Shown here piece after piece: positions 26,604 through 46,425 of a stretch of 64,000 nt of DNA (within the stretch, counting starts at the first letter, position 1; every line of letters starts with the position of its first letter). Source of the DNA: Anaerolineales bacterium (GTDB lineage Bacteria > Chloroflexota > Anaerolineae > Anaerolineales > Villigracilaceae); assembly GCA_016932715.1 (NCBI GenBank), contig JAFGCG010000057.1:1-64000 (forward strand), read 5' to 3'. The notes under the pieces are model-generated. The model did not search any database, was not told where the DNA came from, and saw nothing but the letters and a program-made list of their open reading frames with translations. Position numbers and translations under genes: made by a program.

Positions 26604-27158
26604 ATGAAAAAACTGCTCAAAACTTTATTCCAGATCATCGCGCTGGTTGTTTTGCTCGCGATCCTCACTCCTATTGTCTACTTTGCCTGGCGTATGGGGC
26701 AGCCTATGGATTTGCCGGAGTTCAACGGGTTGACTTACTACCAGGTGCGGGAATGGAAGAAGATAGCTAGCGAAGACCTGATCGCCAAATATGAGACATC
26801 TCACCCAAGCAAAGAATATAAAGGATGGGGAAATCGGTTAGGCACATGTATTGGCGGTGATATTCCTATTGCTTTATTTGTATCTGTGAGATCCGTTATT
26901 ATGGCATGGCAGTCGGAGGAGCTTCGGCTGCAATTAGTGGATCATGGTATGCCCGACGAGCCGGTAACCTTCTGGAACTTTCTGCCATCTCTCTGGAACA
27001 CATATGAAAAACTAACACTCTCAGATATTGAATATAGTCCTCACACTGCCGTTATCTATTGTCGTATTCAGCCAGATATTCCAACTCTCGAAGAATTCGA
27101 GACAATGAAGCGCGATCATGAGACGCATGCATCTGCAAACAGTCAAGTACAACCTTGA
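26604..27158 (+). CDS. Hypothetical single-TM protein, 184 aa
   Basis: The ATG at 26604 opens MKKLLKTLFQIIALVVLLAILTPIVYF, here a basic start and a TM or uncleaved signal at residues 8-28. The outside domain (about 40-170) has no recognised family. It contains YYQVREWKKIASEDL and ends polar. It lies just before the strong promoter at 27155, which overlaps its stop codon. A role in the transfer apparatus is inferred from neighbours only. Confidence 0.5.
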   Translation: MKKLLKTLFQIIALVVLLAILTPIVYFAWRMGQPMDLPEFNGLTYYQVREWKKIASEDLIAKYETSHPSKEYKGWGNRLGTCIGGDIPIALFVSVRSVIMAWQSEELRLQLVDHGMPDEPVTFWNFLPSLWNTYEKLTLSDIEYSPHTAVIYCRIQPDIPTLEEFETMKRDHETHASANSQVQP

Positions 27159-27182
27159 CAAAACGAACGTAGTGCATATAAT
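27155..27182 (+). promoter_or_regulatory. Near-consensus sigma-70-type promoter
   Basis: TTGACA (27155-27160), 16-bp spacer, TATAAT (27177-27182): both hexamers are perfect. It overlaps the stop codon of the upstream gene and drives the 27313 operon through a structured leader. Confidence 0.85.
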
Positions 27183-27204
27183 CCCGTCTCATAAGTTTTG
27201 CAAG

Positions 27205-27306
27205 CCTGCCTGATATGGTGTTTCCCAGGCAGGACTGTCTTTTAAATACGAAAGACCCCTTCCAATTGGAAGGGGTCTTTTCATTTCCCTGAAAGGGGAA
27301 AAGGAG
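27205..27306 (+). terminator. Leader with terminator-type hairpin and SD-proximal hairpin
   Basis: Hairpin 1: CCTGCCTG (27205-27212) with CAGGCAGG (27226-27233). Hairpin 2: GACCCCTTCC (27254-27263), loop AATT, GGAAGGGGTC (27268-27277) followed by TTTT; flanking AAA/TTT make it usable on both strands. Then TTTCCC (27284-27289) with GGGAAA (27296-27301) immediately before the ribosome site AAGGAG. A strong promoter followed by a terminator inside the leader points to attenuation or to a short separate RNA. Confidence 0.7.
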
Positions 27307-27312
27307 AATAAC

Positions 27313-27795
27313 ATGAAATTCGTAAAACTGTTCGCCCCAATTTTTGTTCTTCTGGTTATCGCTGTTACGTCAACGGCGGCTCATGATAACAGCAATGAGA
27401 TCGGTGATCCCGAACCATTAGCAAAACCAATCATGGTTCGGGATGAAAACGCGCCTGCGCTTGCATCTATCGCTGCGCTATATGCCCCGACTGAAAACAA
27501 GGAGTCCTGGTTGCAACTGGTCTGTGATGGAATGACGGAGGGCGGCTGCGCGTACTTCAAAGACAACCAGGCTGATGCCGTCTGGCAGGGACAACATGGA
27601 AATGATGCGAGCTGGGTTAGCGGAAATATCTCGGACACAATCGTCATCAACGAAACTGCGCAGGTCTGGAAGGCACAAACGTCCGTCTTCACCCGAGAGG
27701 AAAAAACATTTGATGTGTACATCCTGGTGGCGCGCGGTACAGATGGATACTGGCATCTCAATCGCGTCCTGAACGCTCCTGGTATTTCACAGTAG
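27313..27795 (+). CDS. NTF2/VirB8-like exported protein A, 160 aa
   Basis: Signal or anchor at residues 3-23. The outer domain has ALASIAALYAPTENKESW, a CDGMTEGGC pair of cysteines, AQVWKAQ and a closing GYWHLNRVL. The next gene encodes a paralogue with the same pattern. The shape (TM plus small alpha/beta domain with a final W-x-LNR strand) fits NTF2-like periplasmic domains such as VirB8/TcpC of transfer channels. That is a fold-level inference; identity with known families was not recognised. Confidence 0.5.
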   Translation: MKFVKLFAPIFVLLVIAVTSTAAHDNSNEIGDPEPLAKPIMVRDENAPALASIAALYAPTENKESWLQLVCDGMTEGGCAYFKDNQADAVWQGQHGNDASWVSGNISDTIVINETAQVWKAQTSVFTREEKTFDVYILVARGTDGYWHLNRVLNAPGISQ

Positions 27796-27805
27796 GGGGT
27801 AGACA

Positions 27806-28318
27806 ATGGAAGTCACGATCTCCCGAAAAGCTGCCACTCAAACGCTTGCCTACGTTGTGCTGGCCATTACGTTGATCACAGCCGGCTATTTGATCTATTC
27901 TAACGGTCTGCTTGCTCGCTGGTTCACAAAGGATGTGCAGGACTCAACTTCTGCGGCAGCAGAAGAACCTGCCATGCAAGCACTTGCCGCGTTCTATTCA
28001 CCTGACGTTACTGGTGAACAGGCTGCCTGGGAGGATAGGGTGTGTGCAGGAATGTCTATGGAAGGCTGTGATCTATTCCGCCAAATGTATGCACCTACTT
28101 TGTGGAAGAGTGCTCAAGCCAAACCATTGAATGCAACAGTAACCTTTCTCACTGACGCTGAAACACTTGAGGACAGTTCGCAGATCTGGAAGGTGAACCT
28201 CACTACAACGGAGATATCCGAGCCAATCTACATTCACGTCATTCAAAGTGAATCAGATAAGTGGCTGCTCAATCGCGTCCTTTTCGCGCAGGAAGCTGCC
28301 AAATATGAGAACCAATAA
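27806..28318 (+). CDS. NTF2/VirB8-like membrane protein B, 170 aa
   Basis: Membrane anchor at about residues 13-33, then a domain parallel to its upstream neighbour: ALAAFYSPDVTGEQAAW, CAGMSMEGC, SQIWKVN and KWLLNRVLF. The two genes are 10 nt apart and are ancient tandem duplicates with conserved paired cysteines. A pair of VirB8-like subunits in one channel would be consistent with the nearby VirB4-class ATPase. Confidence 0.5.
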   Translation: MEVTISRKAATQTLAYVVLAITLITAGYLIYSNGLLARWFTKDVQDSTSAAAEEPAMQALAAFYSPDVTGEQAAWEDRVCAGMSMEGCDLFRQMYAPTLWKSAQAKPLNATVTFLTDAETLEDSSQIWKVNLTTTEISEPIYIHVIQSESDKWLLNRVLFAQEAAKYENQ

Positions 28319-28334: not shown

Positions 28335-29684
28335 ATGCGTACCAAACTCTTTCTGAACCTGCTCATCGACTTCGGCATTCTTCTTACTCTTGCCTCCCCA
28401 ACGTATGTCTCCGCCCAGGGAACAACTCCACCGGTTGATCCCAACGGCGCGTGGTCCGAAGTCATCAATGCTGACGGTACGATCAATTACTCCAATCTCA
28501 CCGATGGTGGAGTAGTGAAACAACAGGCAGATTGGATGCCGAATATTCCGTTGATTGGACCAATTGAGGCAGAATATCACGTCTATTACACGCCATCTGG
28601 CAACACAATCTTGATGCCAACCGCCACAACGCTTTTTTTCATGGCTGCCAACCCCAGCGAGTCCGGTTATCAGGCAGCGTCTTCCACATTGGGGACAAAC
28701 GGTGGAACCGTTAGCGCAGATGCACCCAGCGGGATAGCAAGCTTTGGCTCAATCTGGGCCTCCCTCACAAATCAACCAGGCGGCGAGCAAATGATGGCAG
28801 AGATCAATCAGGCTGGCTTCAGTGGCCCGACTGCGGCGCAGGATTTCTTTGCGGCGCTGGCAAGTGGACAAGTAGACATCTGGAGTTTAAATCCAGATGG
28901 ATTAGGCAACTTCCTAGGCAGCTTGTTGGAAGCAGGTCAGGAAGATAAGAATCTCTACACTTTCATGCTCCTCTATACTCCTGACCAGTGCGCTTCTGTA
29001 CCTGGAGGTTGCACTGCCGAACAGCTCGCCTTACTAGAAAGCCTGCTCCCTGTATCACCAACAGAAGAAGAACTTCCACCAGTTCCCGGCACATGCCCTG
29101 CACCCTCTGTGACGCCCGGGCGTATTGTCAAATCTGCTAAGTTGGTCGCTCCAGATTATCCACTCGTCGTAGGTCAGGATCTGGATAAGCGCGGCGCTGA
29201 CATTATGGCGAGCGCGCACGTCGAGCCCACGATCTATACCTATTACACCTCTGAACCGGTGACTGAGTGCAGGGAAGGTACAAGCAATAACGGTACGACT
29301 AACTGCACGACCGATGGCGGAAAGCCTGGACATGAGAAGCTTGTGGATTGGGAATGTGTCCAGCATCAGCAGATTTACCCTGAATGTATCTCATTTGCCT
29401 CCGCTACTCTCAAACTTACTGCGGCATCGCAGGGCTGGATCCTGAACGAACTTTCTATCCGTTACCCGGGTGCCTATCTTCATAACCCGCGTATTGCCTT
29501 TGGTTCGTCAAACGGTTGCCAATGGAATGAGACATATCCAAAAGTGCAGATCCAAGATCCGGGAGAATGGGATATTTTCATCAATGGACAAACTTCCGGT
29601 ACGCCAGTGTCCGCGCCTCGTACCTTTGGCGGCAAATCTGGTGAATTTGGTGCCTGGCTCAAAGAGACCGCGATCATCAAATAG
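28335..29684 (+). CDS. Large secreted protein of unknown family, 449 aa
   Basis: The ATG at 28335 is preferred over 28323 because AAAGGGATGAG then sits at a proper distance. A signal peptide (MRTKLFLNLLIDFG...; ending ...YVSAQG) is likely cleaved near residue 27. The mature protein is Gly/Ser/Pro-rich with about ten cysteines in its C-terminal half (CTAEQ; PGTCPAP; ECREGT; NCTTDGG; DWECVQHQ; YPECISF). No family recognised. By position it may be an extracellular part of the pilus or transfer machine. Confidence 0.55.
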   Translation: MRTKLFLNLLIDFGILLTLASPTYVSAQGTTPPVDPNGAWSEVINADGTINYSNLTDGGVVKQQADWMPNIPLIGPIEAEYHVYYTPSGNTILMPTATTLFFMAANPSESGYQAASSTLGTNGGTVSADAPSGIASFGSIWASLTNQPGGEQMMAEINQAGFSGPTAAQDFFAALASGQVDIWSLNPDGLGNFLGSLLEAGQEDKNLYTFMLLYTPDQCASVPGGCTAEQLALLESLLPVSPTEEELPPVPGTCPAPSVTPGRIVKSAKLVAPDYPLVVGQDLDKRGADIMASAHVEPTIYTYYTSEPVTECREGTSNNGTTNCTTDGGKPGHEKLVDWECVQHQQIYPECISFASATLKLTAASQGWILNELSIRYPGAYLHNPRIAFGSSNGCQWNETYPKVQIQDPGEWDIFINGQTSGTPVSAPRTFGGKSGEFGAWLKETAIIK

Positions 29685-29700: not shown

Positions 29701-29889
29701 ATGCTTCGCATCACTCACGTCAAGCTCGAAATGCCTTCCTGGAGTACAGGTGTCAAACGTAGGTTGCGCACCATACCCGCAGGTGAGATCCGTGATGCAG
29801 TGGTCGCCCTATTCATTCTCTTCGTTCTTGCGGTTGGGATGATATCTCCGCTCATATTGGCGTTTTTGACGCCGCCTATGGTGGATTGA
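29701..29889 (+). CDS. Small single-TM protein ending in TPP motif, 62 aa
   Basis: GGAGGATTG precedes the ATG. Basic N-terminal half, TM at about 34-57, ending LTPPMVD. The next gene, overlapping its stop at the ATGA, has the same layout. No family recognised. Confidence 0.5.
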   Translation: MLRITHVKLEMPSWSTGVKRRLRTIPAGEIRDAVVALFILFVLAVGMISPLILAFLTPPMVD

Positions 29890-30027
29890 ATGAAATTAAG
29901 ACAACTGTTCAACCGGATTCTCGATGCAACGATTGTCATCACTTTCCTTCTTGCTATGGCAGTGACCGTGATTGGACTTAGTCTTATTACACCGCCAGGT
30001 CCCCCCGATATCTATCTGATTGTGTAA
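29890..30027 (+). CDS. Micro membrane protein, 45 aa
   Basis: Begins directly at the stop of the preceding gene (TGAATGA). MKLRQLFNRILDAT, then a TM at about residues 14-33 and a tail TPPGPPDIYLIV. Same plan as its upstream neighbour (TM followed by TPP), so the two are probably related. The tight spacing supports translation. Confidence 0.5.
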   Translation: MKLRQLFNRILDATIVITFLLAMAVTVIGLSLITPPGPPDIYLIV

Positions 30028-30031
30028 CACA

Positions 30032-30592
30032 ATGGAAAACTTCTTTGCCATCTTCACTGAACGCCTGATCTGGATCACCAATGGTTTTCTAGCGACTGTC
30101 TATTCGCTGGCAGATCATCTGAACGCGCTCGCATTCGCAGTAGCGATAATCGCTTTCGTTGCTACAACCGCTCGCGAGCAGCGATCCTGGGCGGCGGGGG
30201 CGGGCATTTTGTCAATGGTAGCAAGCTTGCTCGCTCCATCTCCCGTACCTCTCTTTCTGCTTGTCATGATCGGCGGTGGTTGGGCGGCGGTGGGTCTGGA
30301 GCGGTACAACCGGCCAGCCCAGAGATGGAACGTGATTCGTGGTCTTGCCCTTTATGCCCTTTCCGGGCTTGGCTTCACGCTCTACCGAAACATGGGTCTT
30401 GGCGAGTCGGTCCTGGCTGACCCCATGATGGCAAATGGGGCAGGCTACCTGAATGCGATCATCGGGATCGCGATGTACGTCATCCCGCTCGGCTACCTGG
30501 CAATGGTAGCGCAAGCGGTGTGGGCACATCCGCCGGCGATCGGAAACCCCGGCGACCTGATCACCAAGGTCAGGACAAGAGGCGGAGGATAG
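30032..30592 (+). CDS. Polytopic membrane protein, 186 aa
   Basis: ATG at 30032, 4 nt after the previous stop. It has about five hydrophobic segments (about residues 32-47, 55-68, 70-88, 105-120, 140-165) and a basic C-terminal tail (ITKVRTRGGG). No family recognised. It precedes the large ATPase gene and may form a membrane pore part for it, as VirB6- or TrbL-type proteins do, but the sequence does not show that. Confidence 0.5.
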   Translation: MENFFAIFTERLIWITNGFLATVYSLADHLNALAFAVAIIAFVATTAREQRSWAAGAGILSMVASLLAPSPVPLFLLVMIGGGWAAVGLERYNRPAQRWNVIRGLALYALSGLGFTLYRNMGLGESVLADPMMANGAGYLNAIIGIAMYVIPLGYLAMVAQAVWAHPPAIGNPGDLITKVRTRGGG

Positions 30593-30729: not shown

Positions 30730-33700
30730 ATGACACTGACAATCCTCGACAATGGCTTATCTATCACACAGGGAGACCTCCGCTATGCCTGGTTTAGGCT
30801 GCAAAAAGGTGCGGAGCAATTCTTTCGCTGTGTTGCCTTGCGCGAACTGCAGGTGATTCCCGTCTCAGTGCGTGATGATTATGATCTGCTTGGTAAGCAG
30901 TGGGGAGCTGTGCGTGGTCTGCACAACGCCAATGTCAACTTTGTGTACGCCTCGATGGGAATTTACTCCCCGGAGTATGTCGGCATCGTGCAGTATTTTG
31001 GTGCAGCGGGGGAGGGAATAACTGAGGAAGTGGCAGCCACAAAAGCTGTGAATGGTATAGCGACTGTCGAGGCTGTACTGGCAAACTTTCCACAGTCCAG
31101 GATTGGCGCGCCCAATGTGGATTGGCTGAAGTGGTATCTGGATTTCATCACATCAAAAGCGAAAAACATCGCCGCGGTCCTTGGGCATCCGGATCCGCGC
31201 GAAGGCAAGCGAGGTTCGTCAAGTGACGGCAATGTGGGCGATGACTCCGATTCGGACCTGGCGGAAGAACAGAACGAAATCCTGTTTCGCGGTCTTGCCA
31301 AACTCCGTCAGAATTTTGTTTTCCAGGTGCTCGCCGAACATGTAGCCCGTCCGCGCATGACACAAACATTGATACGGATCAGCGAAGTTGCCTCCAATGT
31401 GGCGTCCCGGCGCAAAGGCTCGATCGGGATTGGTTTCAACCTGGGTATTCCTCTGATGGCAGCGATCGGTCAATCCCGCACGGAAGGTTTGAGTGCAGGT
31501 CATGGACACACAGAGAGTGTTCAGGATGGTGTCTCACATGGCTGGGGCGAGTCGCACCAGGTTGGAAAGGCGCATGCAGAAGGTGTCGCAAATACAGTTG
31601 GGTCTTCAGAAACCTGGGGCGAATCGGAAACAAAGTCATCCGGGAAATCACACTCTGACATGCATAGCGTGACCGATGCCACAATGAAATCGTCCATGCG
31701 CTCGTCTACCAGAGGGAGTGGTGAATCATCTGGAGGTGGATGGAACAAGAGCGAAGGGGTTGGTGTAAATGTCGATGCAGGGAAATCCGTGCTTGGCAAG
31801 ATCCCGGTCATCGGCGGGCTGCTCAAAGGAGTTTCCGCTGGCTACAACACCAGCGAGGGTGTCAGTGGCTTCAGCTCGACCAGCAGTTTCTCATCGGTGA
31901 CCAATGGAAGTATGAGTGGATCATCTCATGCAGTATCAAACGGCCAATCCGACTCGGTAATGAATGGGCAGGCTACAGGCAAATTCCACTCAGTTTCGAA
32001 AATGCAGGCTACCACCCATAGCTTCATGGATTCTCAAAGTGAGGCATGGGGCGAGAGTGAGAATTGGGGAGAGAATCACGCGATGGGAAAAGCACGGTCA
32101 GAAACCGAAGCCAGGAATTTTGGCACGGGTTTGACAGGTGGCTTCAGCACGGGACTGCTTCCAGGCATTTCCATCAACCGGACATGGCAGACAGAGGATG
32201 ATGTCGCCGAACGTCTCTCCGATGTTTTGCGCAGGCTTGAATCACTGGTCAACCAGGCTTCCATGGAAGGCGGCTTTATGACCAATGCCTTCTTGTTCAC
32301 AGATACCGATGGAGGCGCGGCAGCTGGAGATGCACTTGTGCCGCAAGCCTTTCATGGTCCGAGTGTGCCAACGCCTGTCCTCACAGTACGCCCGGATGTA
32401 CTGGACGAATCGGATCTGCGCGCTCATGCATTTACATTCACTCCGTGGACGGAGATCGAAAATGGCGATCCATTCAGCGGTGAGTTATGGACACGTTATG
32501 CGACCCTGTTGACCGCCGGCCAACTGGCGGCGCTGACTGCCCCTGGCCTCTTCGAGGAAGGCTCAGCCTCGACGACCATGGCAGAGATCCCGGATGGGAT
32601 GGGTTTCTACCCCAATATGCCAGGCGATGTTGTTTTGGGACATCAATACAGCCCGGAGACTGGCGATCTCACCAATGCCCAGATACGCCTCCACCCAGAT
32701 CACTTAATGCATACGATCGCAGTGGGGGATACCGGCTTCGGGAAATCGGTGGCGATGATCCGCATGGCATATGAGACAACCTTGCGTTGGAAACTCCGGA
32801 CGGTAGTTCTGGATTTTGGGGCAGGCTGGCGATCATTACTCAATGCACCTGGTTTGGATGGACATGTCAATATCCTGCAGCTTTGGCCGGACGCGGTGCG
32901 ACCGCTGCGCTGGAACCCCATGCAGATTGGGCGCAATATCGCACCAGAAACGCAATGGCGCGCGTTTGCGGATGTCTTCGGTGGAATTGCCCAGCTTGGC
33001 GTGAAACGCCAAAAACAGGAGCTCCTGGAGGCAATGCGAACGGTCTATATCACAAGCGGTGTTCTGGTGGATGATCCTGAAGTCCGTAGTGGTCAGATGG
33101 GTTTCGTCCAGAAAAACGAGGCTGCCCTGATCGGAGCGCGCGCTGGACGGAAGCTCTCGGAGCTTTCCATTACGGACCGTCAGGCACTTGCTGTTTTTCG
33201 CAGCTCTGCTGTTGGATTGGAAGATCTGTATGCACAGGTTGGGGAGAAACTGAAGAGCGTGCCACCGCGCGACACGATGTTGACCGGCGTCCTCGAGGGC
33301 ATTCTCTTTAGGCTGAACCCATTGGTGCAGGGGTCGGCGGCTCTGCAATTTGCTCCGGGTCCCGACACGATCCCGGTGGAGGACATGAGCAAACCCTGGG
33401 GGGTCACGATCATCGAAGGCGGTATGTTCCTGGATGATTTTGGAAAGGCTTTTCTATTGGGTTGGACTGGCTGGCACCTTTACATGGACATGGTGGCGCG
33501 CCGAGTGCATGAAGTCAACACGAATGAGCCTCTGCTGCAGATCTTCTATGAAGAAGCCAACAAGATCTTTGTCAAAGATGACAACGCGGGCGACGAGGCG
33601 GGAGGTGTATCTGCAACGCAGCGTTTTGCCGATATGTTCCGGGACGCGCGCAAGTACAAATCACGCCTGCATGTAATTACCCAGGCGCCGCACTTGATCG

Positions 33701-33987
33701 CGGATGACATTATCTCCAGTTGCTCCAATATCATCGCAGGCTTCGTCAAGAATGCCAAAGATAAGGATATTGTGTTGTCCGCGCTGGCTCGTTCGGAGAA
33801 AGGTTTCCGTGATGAGGAGTGGCGCCGCTTTGTCGATGACATACCCGTTGGAATGGCAATCGGGCGCTTTCCTTATACGGAACGCCGCGAGAACCAGCGT
33901 CCTGTATTGTTCCGGCCGCTCATGCTTGATGTGCCCGAGCCAACCGACGAGCAGATCGCACAGAAACTTGGAAGGATTACCCTATGA
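30730..33987 (+). CDS. VirB4/HerA-class conjugation ATPase with serine-rich insert, 1085 aa
   Basis: The C-terminal half (about 640-1070) is a HerA/VirB4-type motor: Walker A GDTGFGKS (about 665-672), Walker B region LLQIFYEEANK (about 936), HVITQAPHLIADDII (about 985) and a closing domain. The N-terminal third resembles the substrate-handling half of such ATPases. Residues about 250-455 are an unusual Ser/Gly/His-rich segment with repeated WGES (GWGESHQVGKAH; TWGESETKSSG; AWGESENWGEN). It powers DNA or protein export at the inner membrane. AAGGAAACC precedes the ATG. Next gene overlaps by 4 nt. Confidence 0.75.
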   Translation: MTLTILDNGLSITQGDLRYAWFRLQKGAEQFFRCVALRELQVIPVSVRDDYDLLGKQWGAVRGLHNANVNFVYASMGIYSPEYVGIVQYFGAAGEGITEEVAATKAVNGIATVEAVLANFPQSRIGAPNVDWLKWYLDFITSKAKNIAAVLGHPDPREGKRGSSSDGNVGDDSDSDLAEEQNEILFRGLAKLRQNFVFQVLAEHVARPRMTQTLIRISEVASNVASRRKGSIGIGFNLGIPLMAAIGQSRTEGLSAGHGHTESVQDGVSHGWGESHQVGKAHAEGVANTVGSSETWGESETKSSGKSHSDMHSVTDATMKSSMRSSTRGSGESSGGGWNKSEGVGVNVDAGKSVLGKIPVIGGLLKGVSAGYNTSEGVSGFSSTSSFSSVTNGSMSGSSHAVSNGQSDSVMNGQATGKFHSVSKMQATTHSFMDSQSEAWGESENWGENHAMGKARSETEARNFGTGLTGGFSTGLLPGISINRTWQTEDDVAERLSDVLRRLESLVNQASMEGGFMTNAFLFTDTDGGAAAGDALVPQAFHGPSVPTPVLTVRPDVLDESDLRAHAFTFTPWTEIENGDPFSGELWTRYATLLTAGQLAALTAPGLFEEGSASTTMAEIPDGMGFYPNMPGDVVLGHQYSPETGDLTNAQIRLHPDHLMHTIAVGDTGFGKSVAMIRMAYETTLRWKLRTVVLDFGAGWRSLLNAPGLDGHVNILQLWPDAVRPLRWNPMQIGRNIAPETQWRAFADVFGGIAQLGVKRQKQELLEAMRTVYITSGVLVDDPEVRSGQMGFVQKNEAALIGARAGRKLSELSITDRQALAVFRSSAVGLEDLYAQVGEKLKSVPPRDTMLTGVLEGILFRLNPLVQGSAALQFAPGPDTIPVEDMSKPWGVTIIEGGMFLDDFGKAFLLGWTGWHLYMDMVARRVHEVNTNEPLLQIFYEEANKIFVKDDNAGDEAGGVSATQRFADMFRDARKYKSRLHVITQAPHLIADDIISSCSNIIAGFVKNAKDKDIVLSALARSEKGFRDEEWRRFVDDIPVGMAIGRFPYTERRENQRPVLFRPLMLDVPEPTDEQIAQKLGRITL

Positions 33988-34283: not shown

Positions 34284-34284
34284 A

Positions 34285-39110: not shown

Positions 39111-39983
39111 ATGATTTGGAAGGATTTGGTTGCTCCTGTTGCGGCGGTCCTGATCGCCTTGCTCGCATACAGTTATTTCCGAAGGGTTGACCTGGTATTC
39201 GGACGATCTGCATCCGCGCGCCTCGAGCAGTACGCGGTCGCCGATCACAGAGGTCTTACGGATCGCATCGGCGATTCGCTCATGGATCGTTTCGGGTTGA
39301 CCTTTGAATCTCTTCAGCATGAACTACGCTGGGCGCAATTAGGAGGTTTATATGTGGGTAAGACAGTGGGGAGTGTGCTTGGAAAATCGCTCCTGTATGC
39401 AGTGCTTGGACTGACCTATGTATTGATGTTCAAGACGTTTAGTCCCATCTTTATCCTGGGCATTGCCGTAGCGGCCTATTATCCCATCCTGGGATTGAAA
39501 GGTAGAGGCGGGGATATCCGCCAGATGGTCAAGCGTGCGCTGCCAGAAGCGGCCGCCTTGATCGCAGCGGAGATGAGCGCCAGTGGTTCGGCTGAAACTG
39601 CAGTGACGCGCGCGGCGTCTCTTCCTGGTCCATTCGGCAAACTGGTGCAGGATGTGATCCAGTCTGCACAGAGAGGCGGACGCCTGATCTTCTCGCGCGA
39701 TGCGATCGATGGCGTGATGGTGGAGCAGTTTACAAAATACCGCATGACGCAACTCGAAGCCTTCGCGCGTCAGATTGACCTGGTCGCATCGAAGGGCGCT
39801 GAAGGTCCAAAACAAATGTCCGAGGTGGCGCGTGGATTGGCGCGTGAATACCGGTCTGATGTCGCGAAATCAGCCGAACAGTTGAGTAATAAATTGCTTG
39901 CGCCGATCACGCTTTACATCTTCATTCCCTTTATGCTCGCGATCTTCGTTCCGTTGTTCGCCAGCGTATTTCAATCTTTCTGA
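39111..39983 (+). CDS. tadC: Tad pilus inner-membrane platform TadC
   Basis: 290 aa. TM at about 5-20, a TM pair at about 85-130, T2SSF domain with ALPEAAALIAAEMSASGSAETAV (ALPEAAALIAAEMS...SAETAVTRA) and a final TM (about 265-288). Partner of TadB, 9 nt downstream of it. AGGAGGACGTA precedes the ATG. Confidence 0.8.
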   Translation: MIWKDLVAPVAAVLIALLAYSYFRRVDLVFGRSASARLEQYAVADHRGLTDRIGDSLMDRFGLTFESLQHELRWAQLGGLYVGKTVGSVLGKSLLYAVLGLTYVLMFKTFSPIFILGIAVAAYYPILGLKGRGGDIRQMVKRALPEAAALIAAEMSASGSAETAVTRAASLPGPFGKLVQDVIQSAQRGGRLIFSRDAIDGVMVEQFTKYRMTQLEAFARQIDLVASKGAEGPKQMSEVARGLAREYRSDVAKSAEQLSNKLLAPITLYIFIPFMLAIFVPLFASVFQSF

Positions 39984-39984
39984 C

Positions 39985-40536
39985 ATGAGCATCTTCGGCG
40001 CGCTTCTCTTTGCCTTCCTGATGATCGTGCGTATCGCACAGATGATTGGCGGCGGTGTCGATCCGCTGGGCATTCTGTTGGCGGTCCAGGCCGGAATGGC
40101 GGCGTTCTACATGATCTTCCGTCACAAGGCTTCGCAGGAAGCGCGGCTACCTGTCCAACTCCTGGCATGGACTTCCGCAATCCTGCCGCTGACAATACAA
40201 ACCACAAAGGGAGGCTGGGGGTGGCTTGCAACTCCTGGGTTATGTCTGGCTTTGTGGTCAATATGGAGCCTGGGTTCTTCATTCTCCATCGCACCGGCCG
40301 CCCGTAAGCTTGTCGTGCAGGGACCCTATCGCTTCATCAGGCATCCCATGTATGCCGGTGAGATCCTTTCGCTGTTCGGGACTTGTATTGCATCACTGGC
40401 TGCCTGGAACGTATGCGCACTTGCGATTTTTATCGCCAGCATCTGCATGAGGATCGCGAAGGAGGAGTCGTTGTTCAAGAATTATTCGATCTATGCCCAT
40501 TCAGTGAAGTGGCGTCTGATTCCAGGAGTATGGTGA
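39985..40536 (+). CDS. ICMT/PEMT-like integral-membrane methyltransferase, 183 aa
   Basis: ATG at 39985 sits 1 nt after the tadC stop. Five hydrophobic segments and the family signature near the C-terminus: VVQGPYRFIRHPMYAGEI (about 110-127), then KEESLFKNYSIYAHSVKW. Members transfer a methyl group from SAM to lipids or prenyl-cysteine carboxylates. Its place inside the Tad operon, in which the prepilin peptidase has no methyltransferase domain, raises the idea that it modifies a pilus part; that is inference. Confidence 0.7.
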   Translation: MSIFGALLFAFLMIVRIAQMIGGGVDPLGILLAVQAGMAAFYMIFRHKASQEARLPVQLLAWTSAILPLTIQTTKGGWGWLATPGLCLALWSIWSLGSSFSIAPAARKLVVQGPYRFIRHPMYAGEILSLFGTCIASLAAWNVCALAIFIASICMRIAKEESLFKNYSIYAHSVKWRLIPGVW

Positions 40537-40579: not shown

Positions 40580-42568
40580 ATGAGACTGAAAAAGAGCACT
40601 ATCTTCTTTGTAGCCATTCTTGTAACGTTGAGTATTGCCACACCCGCCCTCGCAGATTACCTGGGTCCCAATCGCACTGTGGAAGATGGCAACTGCAAAG
40701 TTGTTTTGCATAAATGCGTATGGAAGGAAAACAAGCAAGCGTACGGCTATAAGAATTCAGGTAGCTGGTCCTGTCAGAGCGAAAGCAAGCCTTGGAAGAA
40801 ATATCCGAGCAACTCGCGTAACTGCAATGCAGCAAACGTCGGCTATGAGTATTGGAGTCGGGATGGCGGAGAAACAATTACTTATCCGCCTGCGACGATC
40901 ACTGGCTCTGTACAGAACTGCACATTGCGAAACGGCTGGTGTATCACTTCTCCCGAGCTCGCTCTGCGCGCGAACGAACCTGTTTCCGGGTATTCCATTA
41001 CGTTCATCGAAGGAACGCACAATGGAGCAGCTTTCCCGTGCCCAAGTGGAGCGACGAGTTGCACTGTACCGTTGGATGAAGGTAACAACAACTTTGCATA
41101 TTGGGCGCTCTCCTCCTGGGGCGACAGCTCCAGAATGGGGACAACGACTGCCAAAGTCGATACCGTTCCTCCAACGGCGGGGTTGGACATCAACGGTACA
41201 AGTGGAGCGAATGGCTGGTATGTGTCTCCTGTCACTGTGACCGCCACAGGCTCTGATTCCACATCAGGAATAGCAAATGCCCTGCTGGTTGTTGGCGGCG
41301 GTGACTGGCAAGCCTCCGCAACACTGAATGAGGGTGTGTATTTGGTGAGTGCCACATCGACTGACAACGCAGGTCATACCGGAAGCAGCGCTACGGCCAT
41401 ATCCGTTGACACAACTCCACCCAGTTTGAGCTTCGTCTTCAATGGCACACTGGGCGATAACAGCTGGTATGTATCCGATGTTGAGATCGTCCCGAGCGCA
41501 GCAGATGTAACATCGGGTCTAAGCTATTCAGAAGTAAGTGCAGATGGGGGAGTATGGACGCCTTCACAAACCATATCGGATGGCCTACACAACCTGGATG
41601 GACGCGCGTCTGATAATGCTGGGAATACACAAGCCATTTTCGATATATTGCGCATAGACACTATGGCGCCTTCATCGGATTTTGCAAGCGATTTGAAGAG
41701 CCAGGTGGTTTCCGGTGCTATACAGCTTGACGGAGGATCATCAGATCTAACATCCGGCTTGCGATCTATTGAAGTCTCGCTGGATGGAGGAATTACTTGG
41801 GAGACCGCGACCCTTTCAGGCAATACATGGACCTACGATTGGGATACAACGATTCTTCACAATGGAGTTTACACACCTCAGATACGCGGAATAGACAATG
41901 CCGGTAATTACGAGGACCCACAATCTCTCACACTGCTCGTGGACAACTTCCCGCCTCAGGTAAAGATTACAGAGTCCTGGTGGATATGGGAGAGCGGAGT
42001 CTTCCATGTGACTCCAAGTTATTTTGATATTGGCGAGATCTCGGTGAAGATCAGTGACCCAAAAGGTCGTTGGAAGCCCGTCAGGTTGAGCTACAACCCC
42101 AGTAAGAAAACGGGAGATGTGAGATGGGATCGCCGTTTCCCGGGTGACGTGATCGCGCCGTCAGGAAACTACCGCGTAAGCATCGTGGCATGCGATGTGC
42201 ATGGCAATTGTGCCAGTGATGTGGGCGTCATCCAGATTCCAGTCATTGCAGTTGTTCCTCCAACCGCCACGTTATCGCCTGAACCGGTCATCGCGCCAAC
42301 ACAGGCCGCTACGCTTCCATCAACACAGATCGCAGCTCTCCCGCCAACATCGCGTCCGGAGCCAACGAAAACGGCTCAGGCATTTATTCCTGTTCCGAAA
42401 AAAGTTGAAGCACATGGGGACGTGCACGGGAAAGACGTCTTTCCTTTATGGGTGATTTTTATCTTCGGTCTGCTCGCCATTTTGTTTGGGACAGAAGCGT
42501 TGCTCGACCCGCGCCCGGAAGCCTTGCGCTCCCTGGCGCGAACAATAAATCAATTTGTGAAGGAGTAA
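40580..42568 (+). CDS. Secreted Ig-like repeat protein, candidate pilus-associated adhesin, 662 aa
   Basis: Signal peptide (residues 1-26, ending PALADY), then a cysteine-rich region (about 35-150 with CKVVLHKCVW; WSCQSESK; NCNAAN; NCTLRNGWC). Residues about 200-470 hold three Ig-like repeats of the Omp47/Ig_3 sort: VDTVPPTAG; VDTTPPSLS; IDTMAPSSD at each start and NAGHTG/NAGNTQ/NAGNYE near each end. A Thr-Pro linker and a C-terminal TM (about 612-632) with a charged cytosolic tail anchor it. Encoded between tadC and the prepilin peptidase, so a cell-surface adhesin working with the pilus is likely. Confidence 0.7.
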   Translation: MRLKKSTIFFVAILVTLSIATPALADYLGPNRTVEDGNCKVVLHKCVWKENKQAYGYKNSGSWSCQSESKPWKKYPSNSRNCNAANVGYEYWSRDGGETITYPPATITGSVQNCTLRNGWCITSPELALRANEPVSGYSITFIEGTHNGAAFPCPSGATSCTVPLDEGNNNFAYWALSSWGDSSRMGTTTAKVDTVPPTAGLDINGTSGANGWYVSPVTVTATGSDSTSGIANALLVVGGGDWQASATLNEGVYLVSATSTDNAGHTGSSATAISVDTTPPSLSFVFNGTLGDNSWYVSDVEIVPSAADVTSGLSYSEVSADGGVWTPSQTISDGLHNLDGRASDNAGNTQAIFDILRIDTMAPSSDFASDLKSQVVSGAIQLDGGSSDLTSGLRSIEVSLDGGITWETATLSGNTWTYDWDTTILHNGVYTPQIRGIDNAGNYEDPQSLTLLVDNFPPQVKITESWWIWESGVFHVTPSYFDIGEISVKISDPKGRWKPVRLSYNPSKKTGDVRWDRRFPGDVIAPSGNYRVSIVACDVHGNCASDVGVIQIPVIAVVPPTATLSPEPVIAPTQAATLPSTQIAALPPTSRPEPTKTAQAFIPVPKKVEAHGDVHGKDVFPLWVIFIFGLLAILFGTEALLDPRPEALRSLARTINQFVKE

Positions 42569-42573
42569 GAAAC

Positions 42574-43152
42574 ATGTACGAATACATCGCAATCCTCTTG
42601 ATTGCCATCTTATGCCTCATTCTGACACTTTACAACAGACGCATGGCGGCTGCGATCCGCGGCATCGAAAGTATTGTGCAGGACTACTACGCCATGCAGA
42701 TCCGCGCGCGCCGCGCGGATCAGATGAAGGAGATCGACGCATCTTCTTTCAATGCCCTCCAATGGATTGGCGCTCAGGCAAGTTCCGGACTGGATCGCCA
42801 GGTAGAGGTAACAGAAGTGCTTCGTCTCGTGCCCGAGGCGAGCGCGATCGATCTGCGCACCGCGGACAACCGCCGTCTGGTGGTTTCTCCACTGCCTCTG
42901 CCTGAACTTCTGCGCTTTGATAAACGGCTGCGATCCAATGGCGGGAAATCCGCATCCGTGTCCAGACGAGTGGAAGCTTTTGCATCCCGTCCACTGCTCA
43001 ATCAGTCCCGCTGGGGATGGGGAGTCACTGTGGTCGAGCGCGCGCTTTCAGAAGCGGCAGAGTTTTTTGATCTCGAAGCACATGCAGCAGGGACGCGGCT
43101 CGGAATCGATTGGCGTGCTCCTGCACGGTTATGGTTCTATGTTGTGGACTGA
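42574..43152 (+). CDS. Single-TM hypothetical protein in Tad operon, 192 aa
   Basis: ATG at 42574 after AAGGAGTAAG. N-terminal TM (about 3-20), then a helical region and a soluble domain (WGVTVVERALSEAAEFFDLEAHAAGTRL in parts). No family recognised. It overlaps the prepilin peptidase by 14 nt, so the two are coupled. Confidence 0.5.
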   Translation: MYEYIAILLIAILCLILTLYNRRMAAAIRGIESIVQDYYAMQIRARRADQMKEIDASSFNALQWIGAQASSGLDRQVEVTEVLRLVPEASAIDLRTADNRRLVVSPLPLPELLRFDKRLRSNGGKSASVSRRVEAFASRPLLNQSRWGWGVTVVERALSEAAEFFDLEAHAAGTRLGIDWRAPARLWFYVVD

Positions 43153-43570
43153 TCTTCTGATCCGTTTCGTTCTGATGGCTGCTCTCACCTGGATGGGTAT
43201 TCAGGATCGTCGAACGCGTGAAGTCTCCAATGCCCTGACCATCCCCATGCTTATCGGAGGAGTTATTGTGGTCGCTTTTCAGCTAATCGCCCGGGACCCT
43301 TTTGCAGTTGCATCCATCCTGATCATTGCACTGCTGACCTTCGCGGCTCTGCGCGGCTGGATGGGCGGCGCAGATTGGAAAGTGCTTGTGGGATTATTTG
43401 GACTCTGGCCTCTTGCTGGATTGGCATCTCTTACTGGTGCAGGATTGTTTGGCGCCGGCGCGATCTTGTGGACCGGAGATCGGAACGCCAGCTTCCCCGC
43501 TATTTATATCTTTGCAGTTTCAGCTCTCTTGACTTTTTTCGCAGAGGTCTCTATAATCACGCCCAATTAG
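43139..43570 (+). CDS. tadV: Prepilin peptidase (A24 family, TadV/CpaA-like)
   Basis: 143 aa from the ATG at 43139. The two active-site aspartates are Asp23 in IQDRRTREVSN and Asp79 in GWMGGADWK, a variant of the GxGD motif. Short form without the N-terminal methyltransferase domain of PilD. It cleaves the pilin and TadE-type leader peptides before assembly. The 3' end contains the promoter for the pilin operon. Confidence 0.8.
   Translation: MLWTDLLIRFVLMAALTWMGIQDRRTREVSNALTIPMLIGGVIVVAFQLIARDPFAVASILIIALLTFAALRGWMGGADWKVLVGLFGLWPLAGLASLTGAGLFGAGAILWTGDRNASFPAIYIFAVSALLTFFAEVSIITPN
43529..43557 (+). promoter_or_regulatory. Sigma-70-type promoter for the pilin operon
   Basis: TTGACT (43529-43534), 17-bp spacer, TATAAT (43552-43557), located inside the end of the prepilin peptidase gene. 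It gives the pilin genes their own strong promoter. Confidence 0.8.
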
Positions 43571-43646: not shown

Positions 43647-43820
43647 ATGTTCAAGTCAATCTTCAAAGCATTCAAGCACCTCGTTCTCAACGAACGCGGC
43701 GATGACTATGGCGAGAAGGCTGTGATCCTCGTCCTGGTAGTTTTGGCAGGCGTTGGCGCTTTCTCTATGTTCGGCGGCAAGGTCGTGGAACTGATCACCC
43801 GCGCTGCCAGTGGAATATAG
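43647..43820 (+). CDS. flp: Flp-type pilin, 57 aa
   Basis: MFKSIFKAFKHLVLNERGDDYGEK opening (in parts MFKSIFKAFKHL, NERGDDYGEK), then a hydrophobic stretch of about 20 residues. Cleavage after Gly18 would put Glu23 at position +5, as in Flp/type IV pilins, and leave a mature pilin of 39 residues, at the short end of known sizes. AAGGAG at 43635-43640 precedes the ATG. Downstream are TadE- and TadG-like pseudopilins. It is the structural subunit of the pilus. Confidence 0.8.
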   Translation: MFKSIFKAFKHLVLNERGDDYGEKAVILVLVVLAGVGAFSMFGGKVVELITRAASGI

Positions 43821-43824: not shown

Positions 43825-44253
43825 ATGCGCAATCTCTTTCGTCTCTTCAGGACAACGTTTCTCTCGCGCAGAGGCGATGAGTTTGCACAGACCGCGATTG
43901 CCATGCCGGTCATTGTGCTGGTCACGGTCGCATTGATGAATCTCACCATGGCCGGCTTTGCCAGCGTGAACGCCAACAATGCTGCCAACTACGCAGCGCG
44001 CGTTGGCTCTGTCACCCAGCGGGGTGCAGGCGGCGCGGCATACAACGCGGCGATGACGTCCATCTCGCATGCGCCAATCGGTGAGTATGTCGTCTCTGTT
44101 TCCGGGGGAGGTTTTCCGGGTGCGCAGATCAATGTCCAGGTGAATTGGACCGTCCCGAATTACATGGGCGGACTGCTGAGTTTCCTGGGAGGGGACATTG
44201 GAGGCGACTTCCAGGGCACTGGCACATCGGTTTTTCGACAGGAGGGTTGGTGA
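43825..44253 (+). CDS. tadE: TadE-like pseudopilin
   Basis: 142 aa, ATG at 43825, 4 nt after the pilin stop. Leader ends SRRGDEFAQTA, then a hydrophobic helix (about 24-46), then an outer domain with NNAANYAARVGSVTQRG, the usual TadE-like region. Pilus assembly minor subunit processed by the prepilin peptidase. Confidence 0.75.
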   Translation: MRNLFRLFRTTFLSRRGDEFAQTAIAMPVIVLVTVALMNLTMAGFASVNANNAANYAARVGSVTQRGAGGAAYNAAMTSISHAPIGEYVVSVSGGGFPGAQINVQVNWTVPNYMGGLLSFLGGDIGGDFQGTGTSVFRQEGW

Positions 44254-44711
44254 TGCGCTTGCTTCTCTCACAGCGCGCGGATGCCTTTGCCTGGTTCGCA
44301 GCTCTGATGCTCTTCGTTGGCATTCCACTCGCATCCCTGAGCATTGACATCACGCGCATGATGTATGTGCGTGGTCATCTGCAGACCGCCTCTGATGCAG
44401 CCTGCCAGGCCGCCGCGGACGCGCTCGATGTCCCGCATTTCATCACAACCGGTGACGCCCGTATCAATGCTGGTCTTGGACGTTCGCAGGCTGGGCAGGT
44501 ATTTGGCGCCACGCTAATCGATGCTGAGAAGATTGGATATGGCTATGGTCTGGGAATTGATTTTCCCGGTCCCCGCTTTGCTCACTGCACAGCGACGGCC
44601 ACAGTGGATCACATCATTCCGATGACGCCGGCGATGAATATCGTGGTTGAAACCACATCCGAAATGCGCGTACGAACACTTCGACTTGGCTCAGTGCAGG
44701 CTTTGCAGTAG
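44253..44711 (+). CDS. TadG-like protein (Tad domain), short form
   Basis: 152 aa, ATG at 44253 overlapping the tadE stop. N-terminal hydrophobic helix (about 12-33: FAALMLFVGIPLASLSID) followed by DITRMMYVRGHLQTASDAACQAAADAL, the Tad-domain signature (here split as ITRMMYVRGHLQTASDAAC and QAAADAL). No von Willebrand domain, unlike long TadG proteins. Minor pilus component. Confidence 0.7.
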   Translation: MRLLLSQRADAFAWFAALMLFVGIPLASLSIDITRMMYVRGHLQTASDAACQAAADALDVPHFITTGDARINAGLGRSQAGQVFGATLIDAEKIGYGYGLGIDFPGPRFAHCTATATVDHIIPMTPAMNIVVETTSEMRVRTLRLGSVQALQ

Positions 44712-44720
44712 AGGTCAGCA

Positions 44721-45167
44721 ATGGAAATCGAACTTGATTTGCGCACTGAACAACTGAATGCCTGGCGGACGGCTGCCATCCTCATATTGATTCTGACATT
44801 GGTTGGATTAGGAGCCATTGGAGCGCGCGTTACACCTGTTGCCGCGGATAATTCTCCGAAATTGCTTTCGTGGCAGGACTGGCGTTTGCTCCAGGCGGAA
44901 CGTGCCTATCGTGCAGAGCTGGCTGTGCTTCAGGAAGATGCCGCACAACTGGCAAACATGCTCGAAGAACATCCGAGCCCGGTAGCCGCGCAGATCCTTG
45001 CTGAACGCATTGCCAGGCACGCCAAGGCGGGCGATGCTTCACTGGCTGCCGCGCGTGAAACCTTGTTGATGGCTGCATTGAACGTGCGCGACTGGTCGGC
45101 CGGAACATTGGGTCGCGATACAGCTGTCCAATCGGTCAAAGATGCCTTTGCACTGCTAGGACAATAG
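44721..45167 (+). CDS. Single-TM helical protein, 148 aa
   Basis: TM at about residues 14-35, then a long helical domain (LLQAERAYRAELAVLQEDAAQLANML region). No family recognised. Placed between tadG and the nuclease-like gene with tight spacing (9 nt and 1 nt). Confidence 0.5.
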   Translation: MEIELDLRTEQLNAWRTAAILILILTLVGLGAIGARVTPVAADNSPKLLSWQDWRLLQAERAYRAELAVLQEDAAQLANMLEEHPSPVAAQILAERIARHAKAGDASLAAARETLLMAALNVRDWSAGTLGRDTAVQSVKDAFALLGQ

Positions 45168-45168
45168 C

Positions 45169-46425
45169 ATGAGTCTCCTGGGTATTGAACACCACCGCGC
45201 TTTAGATGACCTGCTCTCTGCAGAGCGGCAGTTGCGCGCGCAGGGTGAGCTGGTCGTTCAGGATTTTCGCCAACTCCTCCTGGAGACGGCCATTCGCCTG
45301 GATGGAGAGCGGCTCGAGGCTATCCGACGGGAAAACCCACTCATTCCATCGATATGGACTGTCGGCGAGTGGCGGGAATTTCTGCGTGACATTCCAGATG
45401 TAAGAGGCTGGGGTACTCCAGTTCAATCGAGCGCGTCGACCGAGCGTGAACGTGATCTGCTCAAGCAGATCGAAGCATTACAGGCGCAGCTGGAGAATGC
45501 CTTTCATCGGTTGGATGAGGAAAAGGAGCGCGCTGAAGCCGCGGCAGCGGTGCACCCTGTTCCTGCTTCTGATGGCGCTATAGCAGGTATAGAACTGCCC
45601 AAAGGTGCAACGCCGTGCCTTCTCGATCTGAACGAACATGTGAAGAATCTCCTGCCATCTTTGCCTGCAAAACCACCTACCGCATTTGCGAAAACACTGG
45701 ATGGTGGCGGCAGGATCGGTGGAGATCTGAAGCGTGCCTATCAGCGGTACTGGATTGCCTTGTACATGATTGGGCGCTGGGGATTATCGGCTTCGATGGA
45801 AATCGAAGAAGTCCTTGCAGCAATGGCTGGTGTCTCTTCTGGGTCCGGATCCTTGCGGCGCATTTTGGTCGACCTTGCGAATGCTGCTCTTCTAACCAGC
45901 GAAATTCTGACAATGGATGCGCCCCGTACAGCCTTGCGACTTTATCGACTCTCTTCGGAAGGCGAGAAACTTTTTGAAGCTTTGTTCAAGCAGAAACCGG
46001 AAGAAAATGAGTGGTCAAAGCTTATCCGTCTTCATGAGGGTGAACGTTTTACTGAACATACGCTGGCTGTTATGACTTTTGCCATGCATGCACGTAAGCG
46101 AGGCTATGCCACGCACATCCTGCCTCAAGTAGATGGAAATGCCGAGCCTGATCTGTGGATTGGTCGAAGCGACGAACAACTCTACGTGGAAGTAGAACTT
46201 GGTCTAAAAGAACGTACTGCAAAATGGCGTCACCAGGCTGAACTAAATGGCGGCAAAGCTGCCATCTGTGCTGGGACCGAAAAGGGCCGTCAGCGTCTCA
46301 GTGGTGATTGCAAGCTGGATAACATTCCTGGCTCTGCAACCGATCTCGAAGCCTTGATCGACGCGAAGTACAAGACGGTTAATCACACAAGCTCATTATG
46401 GGTTGAGCAATGGGAAGCTGGATGA
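45169..46425 (+). CDS. Winged-helix plus nuclease-like protein, possible Replic_Relax relative, 418 aa
   Basis: Starts 1 nt after the previous stop. N-terminal helical region, a coiled coil (about 90-130), a winged-helix-like domain (about 175-270), and a C-terminal domain with EHTLAVMTFAMHARKRGY, EPDLWIGRSDEQLYVEVELG and KWRHQAELNG. The His, Pro-Asp and Glu-x-Glu pattern resembles the PD-(D/E)xK-like half of replication-relaxation proteins found in Gram-positive plasmids. If so it is the best relaxase candidate here; a restriction-type nuclease is the alternative. Confidence 0.4.
   Translation: MSLLGIEHHRALDDLLSAERQLRAQGELVVQDFRQLLLETAIRLDGERLEAIRRENPLIPSIWTVGEWREFLRDIPDVRGWGTPVQSSASTERERDLLKQIEALQAQLENAFHRLDEEKERAEAAAAVHPVPASDGAIAGIELPKGATPCLLDLNEHVKNLLPSLPAKPPTAFAKTLDGGGRIGGDLKRAYQRYWIALYMIGRWGLSASMEIEEVLAAMAGVSSGSGSLRRILVDLANAALLTSEILTMDAPRTALRLYRLSSEGEKLFEALFKQKPEENEWSKLIRLHEGERFTEHTLAVMTFAMHARKRGYATHILPQVDGNAEPDLWIGRSDEQLYVEVELGLKERTAKWRHQAELNGGKAAICAGTEKGRQRLSGDCKLDNIPGSATDLEALIDAKYKTVNHTSSLWVEQWEAG

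Follow-up and report, generated by a model that had tools for sequence, protein, structure and literature searches.

The 64,000-nucleotide stretch analysed here (the window) covers positions 1-64000 of a contig of 72,124 bases from an Anaerolineales bacterium whose 4.94 Mb genome is assembled in 195 contigs. Between positions 26604 and 46425 it encodes a Tad pilus together with a large serine-rich ATPase, two VirB8-like proteins, further membrane proteins and a candidate DNA-processing protein, and all genes named in this interval are intact and lie on the plus strand. This block is referred to below as the module. It was compared mainly with those of G008 (the nearest module-bearing relative, of the same genus, on a contig of 57,352 bases), G025 (a member of the window's family whose genome is complete in one contig, with a module of the window type and an ATPase 68% identical to the window's), Leptolinea sp. 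HRD-7, Flexilinea flocculi and Bellilinea caldifistulae GOMI-1 (G048). The genes of the module and the two that follow it are listed below; counts of homologous open reading frames (ORFs) are from fetched loci, some of which overlap.

26604-27158, +, small membrane protein A (hydropathy; 43 homologous ORFs)
27313-27795, +, VirB8-like protein 1 (sequence family of the 27806 protein by iterated hidden Markov model, E 2.6e-36)
27806-28318, +, VirB8-like protein 2, predicted transmembrane (TM) helix and NTF2-like domain (AlphaFold2 model, VIA-align matches)
28335-29684, +, C478, exported or anchored protein (no family match; 73 homologous ORFs)
29701-29889, +, small membrane protein (ORF)
30020-30592, +, D190, polytopic membrane protein, candidate channel part (three hydrophobic segments; 78 homologous ORFs)
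30730-33987, +, serine-rich HerA-type ATPase, candidate DNA motor (NF033849, 1015.6 bits; HerA-type by profile)
33984-34497, +, two small proteins, 33984-34283 and 34285-34497 (ORFs; homologues in G008 and G025)
34523-35398, +, CpaB/RcpC (RcpC 1.4e-11, SAF 4.4e-10)
35416-36726, +, CpaE/TadZ (CbiA 0.00017, below the Pfam cut-off; position and homology)
36738-37982, +, CpaF/TadA assembly ATPase (T2SSE 5.5e-26)
38133-39101, +, TadB (no useful Pfam match; homology and position in relatives)
39111-39983, +, TadC (T2SSF 0.0021, below the Pfam cut-off; position)
39985-40536, +, ICMT/PEMT-type membrane methyltransferase (PEMT 1.4e-10; follows TadC in many loci)
40580-42568, +, Ig-like surface protein with a C-terminal hydrophobic segment (Big_13 1.3e-15; hydropathy)
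42571-43152, +, E192, single-TM protein (homologues in G008, G025 and G048)
43139-43570, +, prepilin peptidase, A24 (Peptidase_A24 6e-11)
43647-43820, +, Flp-type major pilin, 57 amino acids, G/DDYGE motif (ORF; same in G008)
43825-44253, +, TadE (TadE 0.0032, below the Pfam cut-off)
44253-44711, +, TadG (Tad 2.5e-6)
44721-45167, +, F148, single-TM protein preceding the nuclease-like gene (ORF, homologues, hydropathy)
45169-46425, +, coiled coil, winged helix and PD-(D/E)XK-like protein, candidate DNA-processing protein (predicted model, alignment)
46663-47457, +, Rad52/annealing-like protein (Rad52 0.023; phrog_7838 1.9e-10; conserved in G008 and G025)
47633-48523, +, conserved protein, here called 47579 (conserved in G008 and G025; no family match)

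The Tad set is complete for a one-membrane host, with CpaB, CpaE, CpaF, TadB, TadC, A24 peptidase, Flp pilin, TadE and TadG all represented; the four genes with sub-threshold or no useful Pfam matches (CpaE, TadC, TadE and TadB) were assigned by gene order and by homology in relatives. The original prediction, made from the sequence alone, had named this set, and every gene that it listed is present, intact and in the same direction. The pilin that it proposed corresponds to the ORF at 43647-43820, with its processing site in the G/DDYGE motif, and a pilin with glycine and glutamate at +5 is found in the corresponding position in G008, Flexilinea and HRD-7. As it had also stated, there is no secretin: PF00263 was found in none of six whole genomes and in 6 of 14 control genomes. 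Lack of a secretin is as expected in a one-membrane host, since the secretin belongs only to the diderm versions of Tad. The A24 peptidase is short and apparently lacks the methylase domain of PilD. As an idea only, the methyltransferase at 39985-40536 might methylate the pilin N-terminus.

The ATPase belongs to the NCBIfam family NF033849 (ser_rich_anae_1, "serine-rich protein"; cut-off 650 bits), the name of which is descriptive only and has no function attached. Against Pfam, the protein gave a single match under the cut-off (E 0.18), and DUF87 (PF01935) was unmatched at E ≤ 1. When a profile of the family was compared with the PDB, HerA-type structures scored best (8yho, a DUF87 entry, at 1.3e-13; 8wiv, a HerA central domain, at 1e-10; and further HerA chains), and no chain named VirB4 appeared among matches at E ≤ 1. 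By hhalign, the ATPase aligned with HerA of three Chloroflexota genomes at 89-92% probability, although these references come from the window's own phylum, which may account for part of the HerA lead. Two other DUF87 proteins gave 95% and 82%, FtsK 31-56%, VirB4 of R751 and pCF10 17% and 6%, and VirD4 7% and 0.5%. A match to CedD in NCBIfam was weak (E 0.0012) and far under the cut-off. The ATPase, by these sequence comparisons, is nearer to HerA than to VirB4 within the same superfamily, and the "HerA/VirB4-type" label originally given to it is shifted here towards HerA.

Two proteins encoded upstream of the ATPase had been described as VirB8-like. The AlphaFold2 model of the 27806 product (pLDDT 89.9, built from 43 sequences) has a TM helix followed by an NTF2-like domain, and the first 14 rows of its VIA-align list (Z 8.8-10.7) are all type IV secretion or conjugation entries, which we take to be VirB8-type, judging from their titles. 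CagV leads the list (Z 10.7, 3.0 Å over 113 residues), and 3ub1, titled "Ntf2 like protein involved in plasmid conjugation" and presumably TcpC, scores Z 8.9. A VirB8-like fold of the 27806 protein is thus supported by prediction, with VirB8 proteins the first matches to the predicted structure, and the 27313 protein can be placed with it by shared sequence family. At the sequence level, a PDB search with the VirB8-like family reached a best E of only 0.44, and no Pfam or NCBIfam family matched C478.

The 45169 protein had been put forward as relaxase-like. It matched neither the relaxase families PF03432 and PF08751 nor any other relaxase in Pfam or NCBIfam, and that description is replaced here by one of a winged-helix protein with a PD-(D/E)XK-like domain. 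Its model (pLDDT 82.9, 21 sequences) predicts a long coiled coil, a winged helix resembling those of PadR, MarR and RosR (VIA-align Z up to 9.5) and a domain of alpha-beta-beta-beta-alpha-beta topology. In this last domain an invariant D328 precedes strand 2, E341-V-E343, of which E341 is invariant, ends strand 3, and K352-W353 lie in the next helix; K352 is nearly invariant, and the third motif reads E-V-E with the lysine displaced. VRR_NUC matches 4 of the 21 family members weakly (best 0.0033), and the PDB chain 2eo0, which we take to be Hjc-like, matches the family at a weak E of 0.034. The model and these motifs suggest that the C-terminal domain has a PD-(D/E)XK-type nuclease fold. As for the two genes that follow, the annealing protein originally proposed at 46663 is recognisable in the window only by its weak Rad52 match, while one of the 64 ORFs scanned in the Flexilinea element described below matches Rad52 at 4.5e-16. 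The supposed single-stranded DNA-binding protein 47579 is conserved, yet belongs to no Pfam or NCBIfam family at E ≤ 1.

When proteins of the window were searched by tblastn against 11 stretches from relatives, gene order was largely kept. The arrangement is not due to chance, since many loci repeat it. A scan of a collection of species genomes found 91 relatives, of which 80 loci were kept, 79 of them with an ATPase match. Downstream sequence reaching 6 kb or more beyond the ATPase was available for 51 loci, and CpaE or CpaF was called in 47 of these; the other four are L056, L064, L068 and L121, and L056 is a technical miss in which tblastn detects both genes. Among the 47 loci with 4.5 kb upstream, C478 is present in 45, D190 in 40 and the VirB8-like gene in 32. 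Pairwise distances of the ATPase correlate closely with those of CpaE (r 0.970, 49 loci), CpaF (0.976, 47), CpaB (0.956, 48), D190 (0.966, 45), C478 (0.903, 54) and TadC (0.872, 38); the maximum r in 500 permutations per gene was 0.32. The ATPase and Tad genes are therefore co-inherited, and the occurrence counts and the CpaE and CpaF correlations bear out the original view that they move as one unit. Ratios of nonsynonymous to synonymous substitution (dN/dS) of 0.02-0.42 across 15 core genes, between HRD-7 and Flexilinea, reveal purifying selection and therefore indicate that the module stays functional while moving.

The module is patchily distributed, being present in 12 of 61 genomes, and the NF033849 cut-off is exceeded in 32 of 397 genomes of the class (the window's own genome is included in both counts); a looser tally of 347 of 397 was inflated, by reading of its rows, by serine-rich and HerA matches. 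An ATPase tree was built from 72 of 82 rows, after removal of nine without a usable ATPase motif and of L105, which had no ATPase ORF, and one of its subclades consists of near-identical proteins from different genera. In this clade b, all 21 pairs of seven hosts (three named strains, an Ornatilinea metagenome-assembled genome (MAG) and three other MAGs) share a largest block of 7.9-15.7 kb at 93.0-97.9% DNA identity, whereas rpoB of the same hosts (2.8-4.0 kb) is 69.7-78.1% identical. For Levilinea saccharolytica, Flexilinea flocculi and Leptolinea sp. HRD-7 alone, the core is 94.0-95.2% identical versus 69.7-73.9% for rpoB. Further clade-b pairs are less similar (73-91%). In the window's own clade, clade a, mean DNA identity is at most 89.3%, between two MAGs and without an rpoB control, and the argument for recent transfer therefore depends on clade b. 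Bellilinea caldifistulae GOMI-1 carries two members of the ATPase family, one from each clade and each with Tad genes. A clade-b ATPase also occurs on a 5.4-kb contig of a Desulfuromonas MAG (L085), by cross-phylum transfer or misbinning.

The boundaries of three elements could be defined. In HRD-7, the record of which is titled complete genome, an element of ~125.9 kb lies between exact 46-bp direct repeats of a tRNA-Met 3′ end, and in Flexilinea one of ~77.3 kb lies between exact 44-bp direct repeats, likewise of a tRNA-Met 3′ end; in both, ARAGORN places the tRNA-Met at the right end. The element of G025 spans 133.7 kb between exact 65-bp repeats of a tRNA-Leu(gag) 3′ end, at 2,022,651 and 2,156,385; beside the right repeat lies an ORF that looks like a tyrosine recombinase (2,155,290-2,156,249). 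In all three resolved Chloroflexota cases the module is thus integrated in the chromosome; in Bacillota it is on plasmids. No terminal overlap of contigs was detected. Because relatives have such attachment (att) sites and the same backbone recurs in G008, we infer that the window's element is integrated as well. The backbone genes of the window outside the module are as follows.

772-1293, +, backbone membrane protein M173 (homologues in the same place in the G025 and G008 elements)
2541-3476, +, backbone membrane protein M311 (homologues in the G025 and G008 elements)
4441-5196, +, ParA partition ATPase (AAA_31 5.7e-39; conserved at the left side of the elements)
5210-5797, +, protein after ParA (same succession in G025, G008, HRD-7 and Flexilinea)
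6172-8286, +, replication-initiator-like protein with DnaA N-terminal domain (DnaA_N 1.4e-11; conserved)
62284-63300, -, backbone tyrosine recombinase (Phage_integrase 1.7e-22; homologues in G008 and G025)

The elements of HRD-7 and Flexilinea have in common the blocks from ParA through the initiator gene to 45169 (91%), from VirB8 through the ATPase to CpaF (95%) and across TadE/G (94.5%), followed by right-hand blocks at 83-92% that include bacteriophage exclusion (BREX) genes. Apart from a partial duplicate of cpaF in HRD-7, the DNA between these core blocks has no BLAST match. Taken together, these findings establish that the elements are site-specifically integrated and have spread between genera, with the ATPase, VirB8-like and Tad genes co-inherited under purifying selection. 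The att repeats at tRNA genes, the DNA identity between genera and the patchy distribution uphold the earlier assignment to a mobile element. The converse, that the set is fixed in chromosomes without mobility genes, was also checked and the outcome favours mobility: a fixed chromosomal housekeeping Tad locus was rejected in view of the intergenus identity and the att repeats. A phage origin was likewise rejected, there being no confirmed relative among phage records or, from 29 pattern matches, among viral contigs. When 64 ORFs of at least 90 amino acids from the Flexilinea element were scanned against PHROG, with the omission of four ORFs crossing the fetched stretches (the 45169 homologue among them), capsid, portal and tail families were absent from the best 25 of 50 matches. 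The phrog_2666 "terminase" family matches the HerA-like end of the window's ATPase (E 0.0017) and two ORFs of the Flexilinea element, the second of which is probably a 716-amino-acid HerA-like ORF.

Cargo differs among the elements. In the Flexilinea element it includes abortive infection (Abi), SMODS and transposase genes; in the window it comprises type I restriction genes and the gene for a ROCO protein. The restriction-modification set of the window (14561-23430; HsdM at 16177 and, by reading, 14561, HsdS at 19275, HsdR at 20449) encloses a DUF6236 gene and has no match in the G008 contig; the LRR-Roc-COR (ROCO) GTPase at 23480-26272 lies directly upstream of the transfer module. In HRD-7, ~35 kb after CpaF are largely metal-transport- or redox-like by ORF reading, with the partial cpaF copy on the far side of this insert. 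The G025 element contains, by the same kind of reading, a type I-C-like CRISPR-Cas set (2130553-2150397) with an array of ~10 kb. A giant minus-strand ORF of the window (3080 amino acids, 52779-62021) is RHS-like by reading; a smaller similar gene lies at 50498-51949, and a related stretch (35.8% identity) is found in the G025 element. Replication-type proteins of the G008 element comprise beta-clamp-like, RadC, PD-(D/E)XK, exonuclease and large helicase-methylase-like proteins, and a RuvB-like protein can be read on L046, the contig stretch past the window.

Relatives of the module also occur on Bacillota megaplasmids. pB6464 of Alkaliphilus (436 kb) and pRUMAL01 of Ruminococcus albus 7 (421 kb) share one order: 45169-like, D190-like, serine-rich ATPase, CpaB, CpaE, CpaF, TadB, TadC and A24 peptidase, with the D190-like matches weak (E 2.9e-4 and 6.9e-9, respectively). 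In the Pontibacillus and Priestia megaterium megaplasmids a 45169-like gene adjoins Cpa genes; a relative of the ATPase lies ~12 kb from them in Pontibacillus, and none was found within the 36.7 kb examined in Priestia. Among the ATPase scores in these comparisons, that of L047 is not independent, its row being part of the profile training set. Since 45169-like genes stand beside ATPase or Cpa genes on the Bacillota megaplasmids, 45169 belongs to the module and not to the Chloroflexota backbone.

Known components of conjugation were then sought in whole genomes. The relaxase families PF03432 and PF08751, the only two searched genome-wide, were found in none of six genomes, among them G025, complete in one contig, and HRD-7 (G063), a chromosome record titled complete genome. 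VirD4 (PF02534) gave two matches, in G062 at 254 kb and in G025 at 4.29 Mb, neither of them within an element, and all HerA (PF01935) and FtsK (PF01580) matches of G025 and HRD-7 likewise lie outside the elements. The serine-rich ATPase is therefore the only motor of its superfamily seen on these two elements.

On this evidence we regard the block as probably the transfer module of integrative conjugative elements (in Bacillota, of large plasmids), built from a Tad pilus and a HerA-type motor. The Tad pilus, with its Flp pilin, CpaF, TadB, TadC and peptidase, would make or hold the donor-recipient contact. Together with D190, the VirB8-like proteins would form or organise a channel through the single membrane, through which the serine-rich ATPase would drive DNA. 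The 45169 protein would recognise and process the DNA of the element, at the step otherwise taken by a relaxase, and the Rad52-like and 47579 proteins may handle the incoming DNA. The transferred DNA might be single- or double-stranded, a HerA-type motor making a double strand possible. The stronger proposal, that this is relaxase-independent conjugation in one-membrane bacteria of two phyla, in which a 45169-type protein and a HerA-type motor take over from relaxase, VirB4 and VirD4, and Tad from the conjugative pilus, is advanced tentatively, and we would sooner expect it to need revision than to hold in full.

Pilus-mediated contact, the export role of the ATPase, the processing role of 45169 and the form of the DNA are all things that we infer. 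Several points weigh against this interpretation. Of the seven hosts compared for DNA identity, four are MAGs, for which misbinning is possible, and the window's own contig stops before any att site. NTF2-like folds are common: unrelated NTF2-like proteins reach Z 8-8.7 against the 27806 model (TraM of pIP501 8.7), moderately under the 10.7 of CagV, and Foldseek gave no match at E ≤ 0.001 (best 0.0044, DotI). Profiles of the VirB8-like protein and C478 had no matches in the stretches of the four Bacillota megaplasmids. The nuclease domain of 45169 was unmatched in the structure search lists; for the VIA-align list this absence is uninformative, since that list spans the winged helix alone. Since the serine-rich ATPase itself misses PF01935, a search with that family may overlook another divergent motor. 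In the Flexilinea element a further ORF resembles HerA weakly (the one of 716 amino acids; E 4.9e-8 to the ATPase profile); it lies among the BREX genes (87014-89164 of the joined reversed stretch L154) and has no match in HRD-7. Finally, no origin of transfer (oriT) or nick site was identified.

The remaining points against concern relaxases, and lend themselves to a more conventional explanation: conjugation of the ordinary kind, its relaxase and coupling protein being of another family, of recombinase type or supplied in trans, and Tad and the ATPase providing only the channel. One carrier, pRUMAL01, is typed "mobilizable, MOBP" and thus has an ordinary relaxase; the genome-wide relaxase search was limited to two families, and other MOB types may exist. 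The Flexilinea and G008 elements each have more than one tyrosine-recombinase-like gene, and the tyrosine recombinases of the elements could also serve as relaxases of the TcpM type. The lack of both relaxase families in six genomes that include G025 and HRD-7, and of VirD4 or FtsK matches within these two elements, argues in the other direction, and we consider ordinary conjugation rather unlikely. The Tad pilus might instead be cargo for adhesion or aggregation that aids the host or promotes contact, with transfer by another route. Tad pili usually serve adhesion, and the Ig-like surface protein at 40580 would suit an adhesin. The authors describing a Cutibacterium acnes plasmid, in the part of their report drawn on here, left the link between its Flp pili and conjugation genes open (PMC5696575). 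Unlike the inserts between the core blocks, however, the ATPase, VirB8-like and nuclease-like genes sit among the Tad genes and are co-inherited with them, which makes adhesion cargo an unlikely account. Lastly, the module could be a competence-like DNA-uptake or exchange machine, resembling the archaeal Ced/Ted systems or the tad-dependent transformation of Micrococcus luteus. The HerA-type motor and the weak CedD match fit this idea, and the excerpted sources state that Ced/Ted import DNA (PMC9905601) and that tad is needed for transformation in M. luteus (as cited in PMC5696575). Residence on self-spreading elements favours export of the element, however, uptake being of benefit to the host, and an uptake machine appears quite improbable.

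If the transfer module does move DNA, a whole class of mobile elements, with BREX, CRISPR-Cas, restriction and metal-transport cargo, has been overlooked. Conjugative elements are usually recognised by profiles of relaxase, VirD4 and VirB4, and the MOB-suite typing in PLSDB lists pB6464 and the Pontibacillus and Priestia megaplasmids as non-mobilizable. DNA export by a Tad pilus would then be testable in cultured Levilinea, Leptolinea, Flexilinea, Ruminococcus albus 7 and Alkaliphilus B6464. The module suggests a poorly known route of DNA transfer between one-membrane bacteria. A search of the open-access PMC literature returned no description of this system or of any conjugation machinery of Anaerolineae.

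Several published systems share features with the module, the nearest in principle being PAPI-1 and the C. acnes tad plasmid; they are compared here as described in the excerpts available from each paper. Transfer of PAPI-1 of Pseudomonas aeruginosa needs a type IV pilus, and its only clear homologues of type IV secretion components are VirB4 and VirD4 (PMC12857230). It thus resembles the window family in pilus-dependent transfer of an island without a recognised full secretion system, but its host is diderm, its pilus is of type IVb and not Tad, and VirD4 is present; the excerpt mentions no serine-rich HerA-type ATPase or 45169-type protein. Closer in host type is a linear plasmid of C. acnes, putatively conjugative, which in a monoderm combines a VirB4-family ATPase, a TcpC-like protein (a VirB8 relative) and a tad locus on one element (PMC5696575). 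Unlike the window family it has an FtsK/TraB-like translocase, and the excerpted account reports neither a serine-rich HerA-type ATPase nor a 45169-type protein. In Sulfobacillus, also monoderm, the backbone of pL15 and pY0017 and an integrated plasmid of S. thermotolerans encode CpaF, TadB and TadC with a VirB4-like protein (PMC6803676), but these elements have their own relaxase and a TraG-like coupling protein. pMP7017 of Bifidobacterium breve was considered as a further precedent and dropped, its Tad cluster being described as chromosomal (PMC10832533). The archaeal Ced/Ted systems combine a VirB4/HerA-type ATPase with no recognisable relaxase, and HerA with a nuclease is proposed to prepare the DNA (PMC9905601); they are described as domesticated derivatives of type IV secretion systems and differ from the system proposed here in importing DNA, in their VirB2-like pilin and in having no Tad. 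Compared with the usual Tad/Flp (type IVc) pilus, the module adds the ATPase, VirB8-like and nuclease-like genes, lacks a secretin and is found on mobile elements. By analogy, the window system may work like those of PAPI-1, C. acnes and Sulfobacillus, and would be distinguished from them by its motor, by having no relaxase or VirD4 that could be found, and by its nuclease-like partner.

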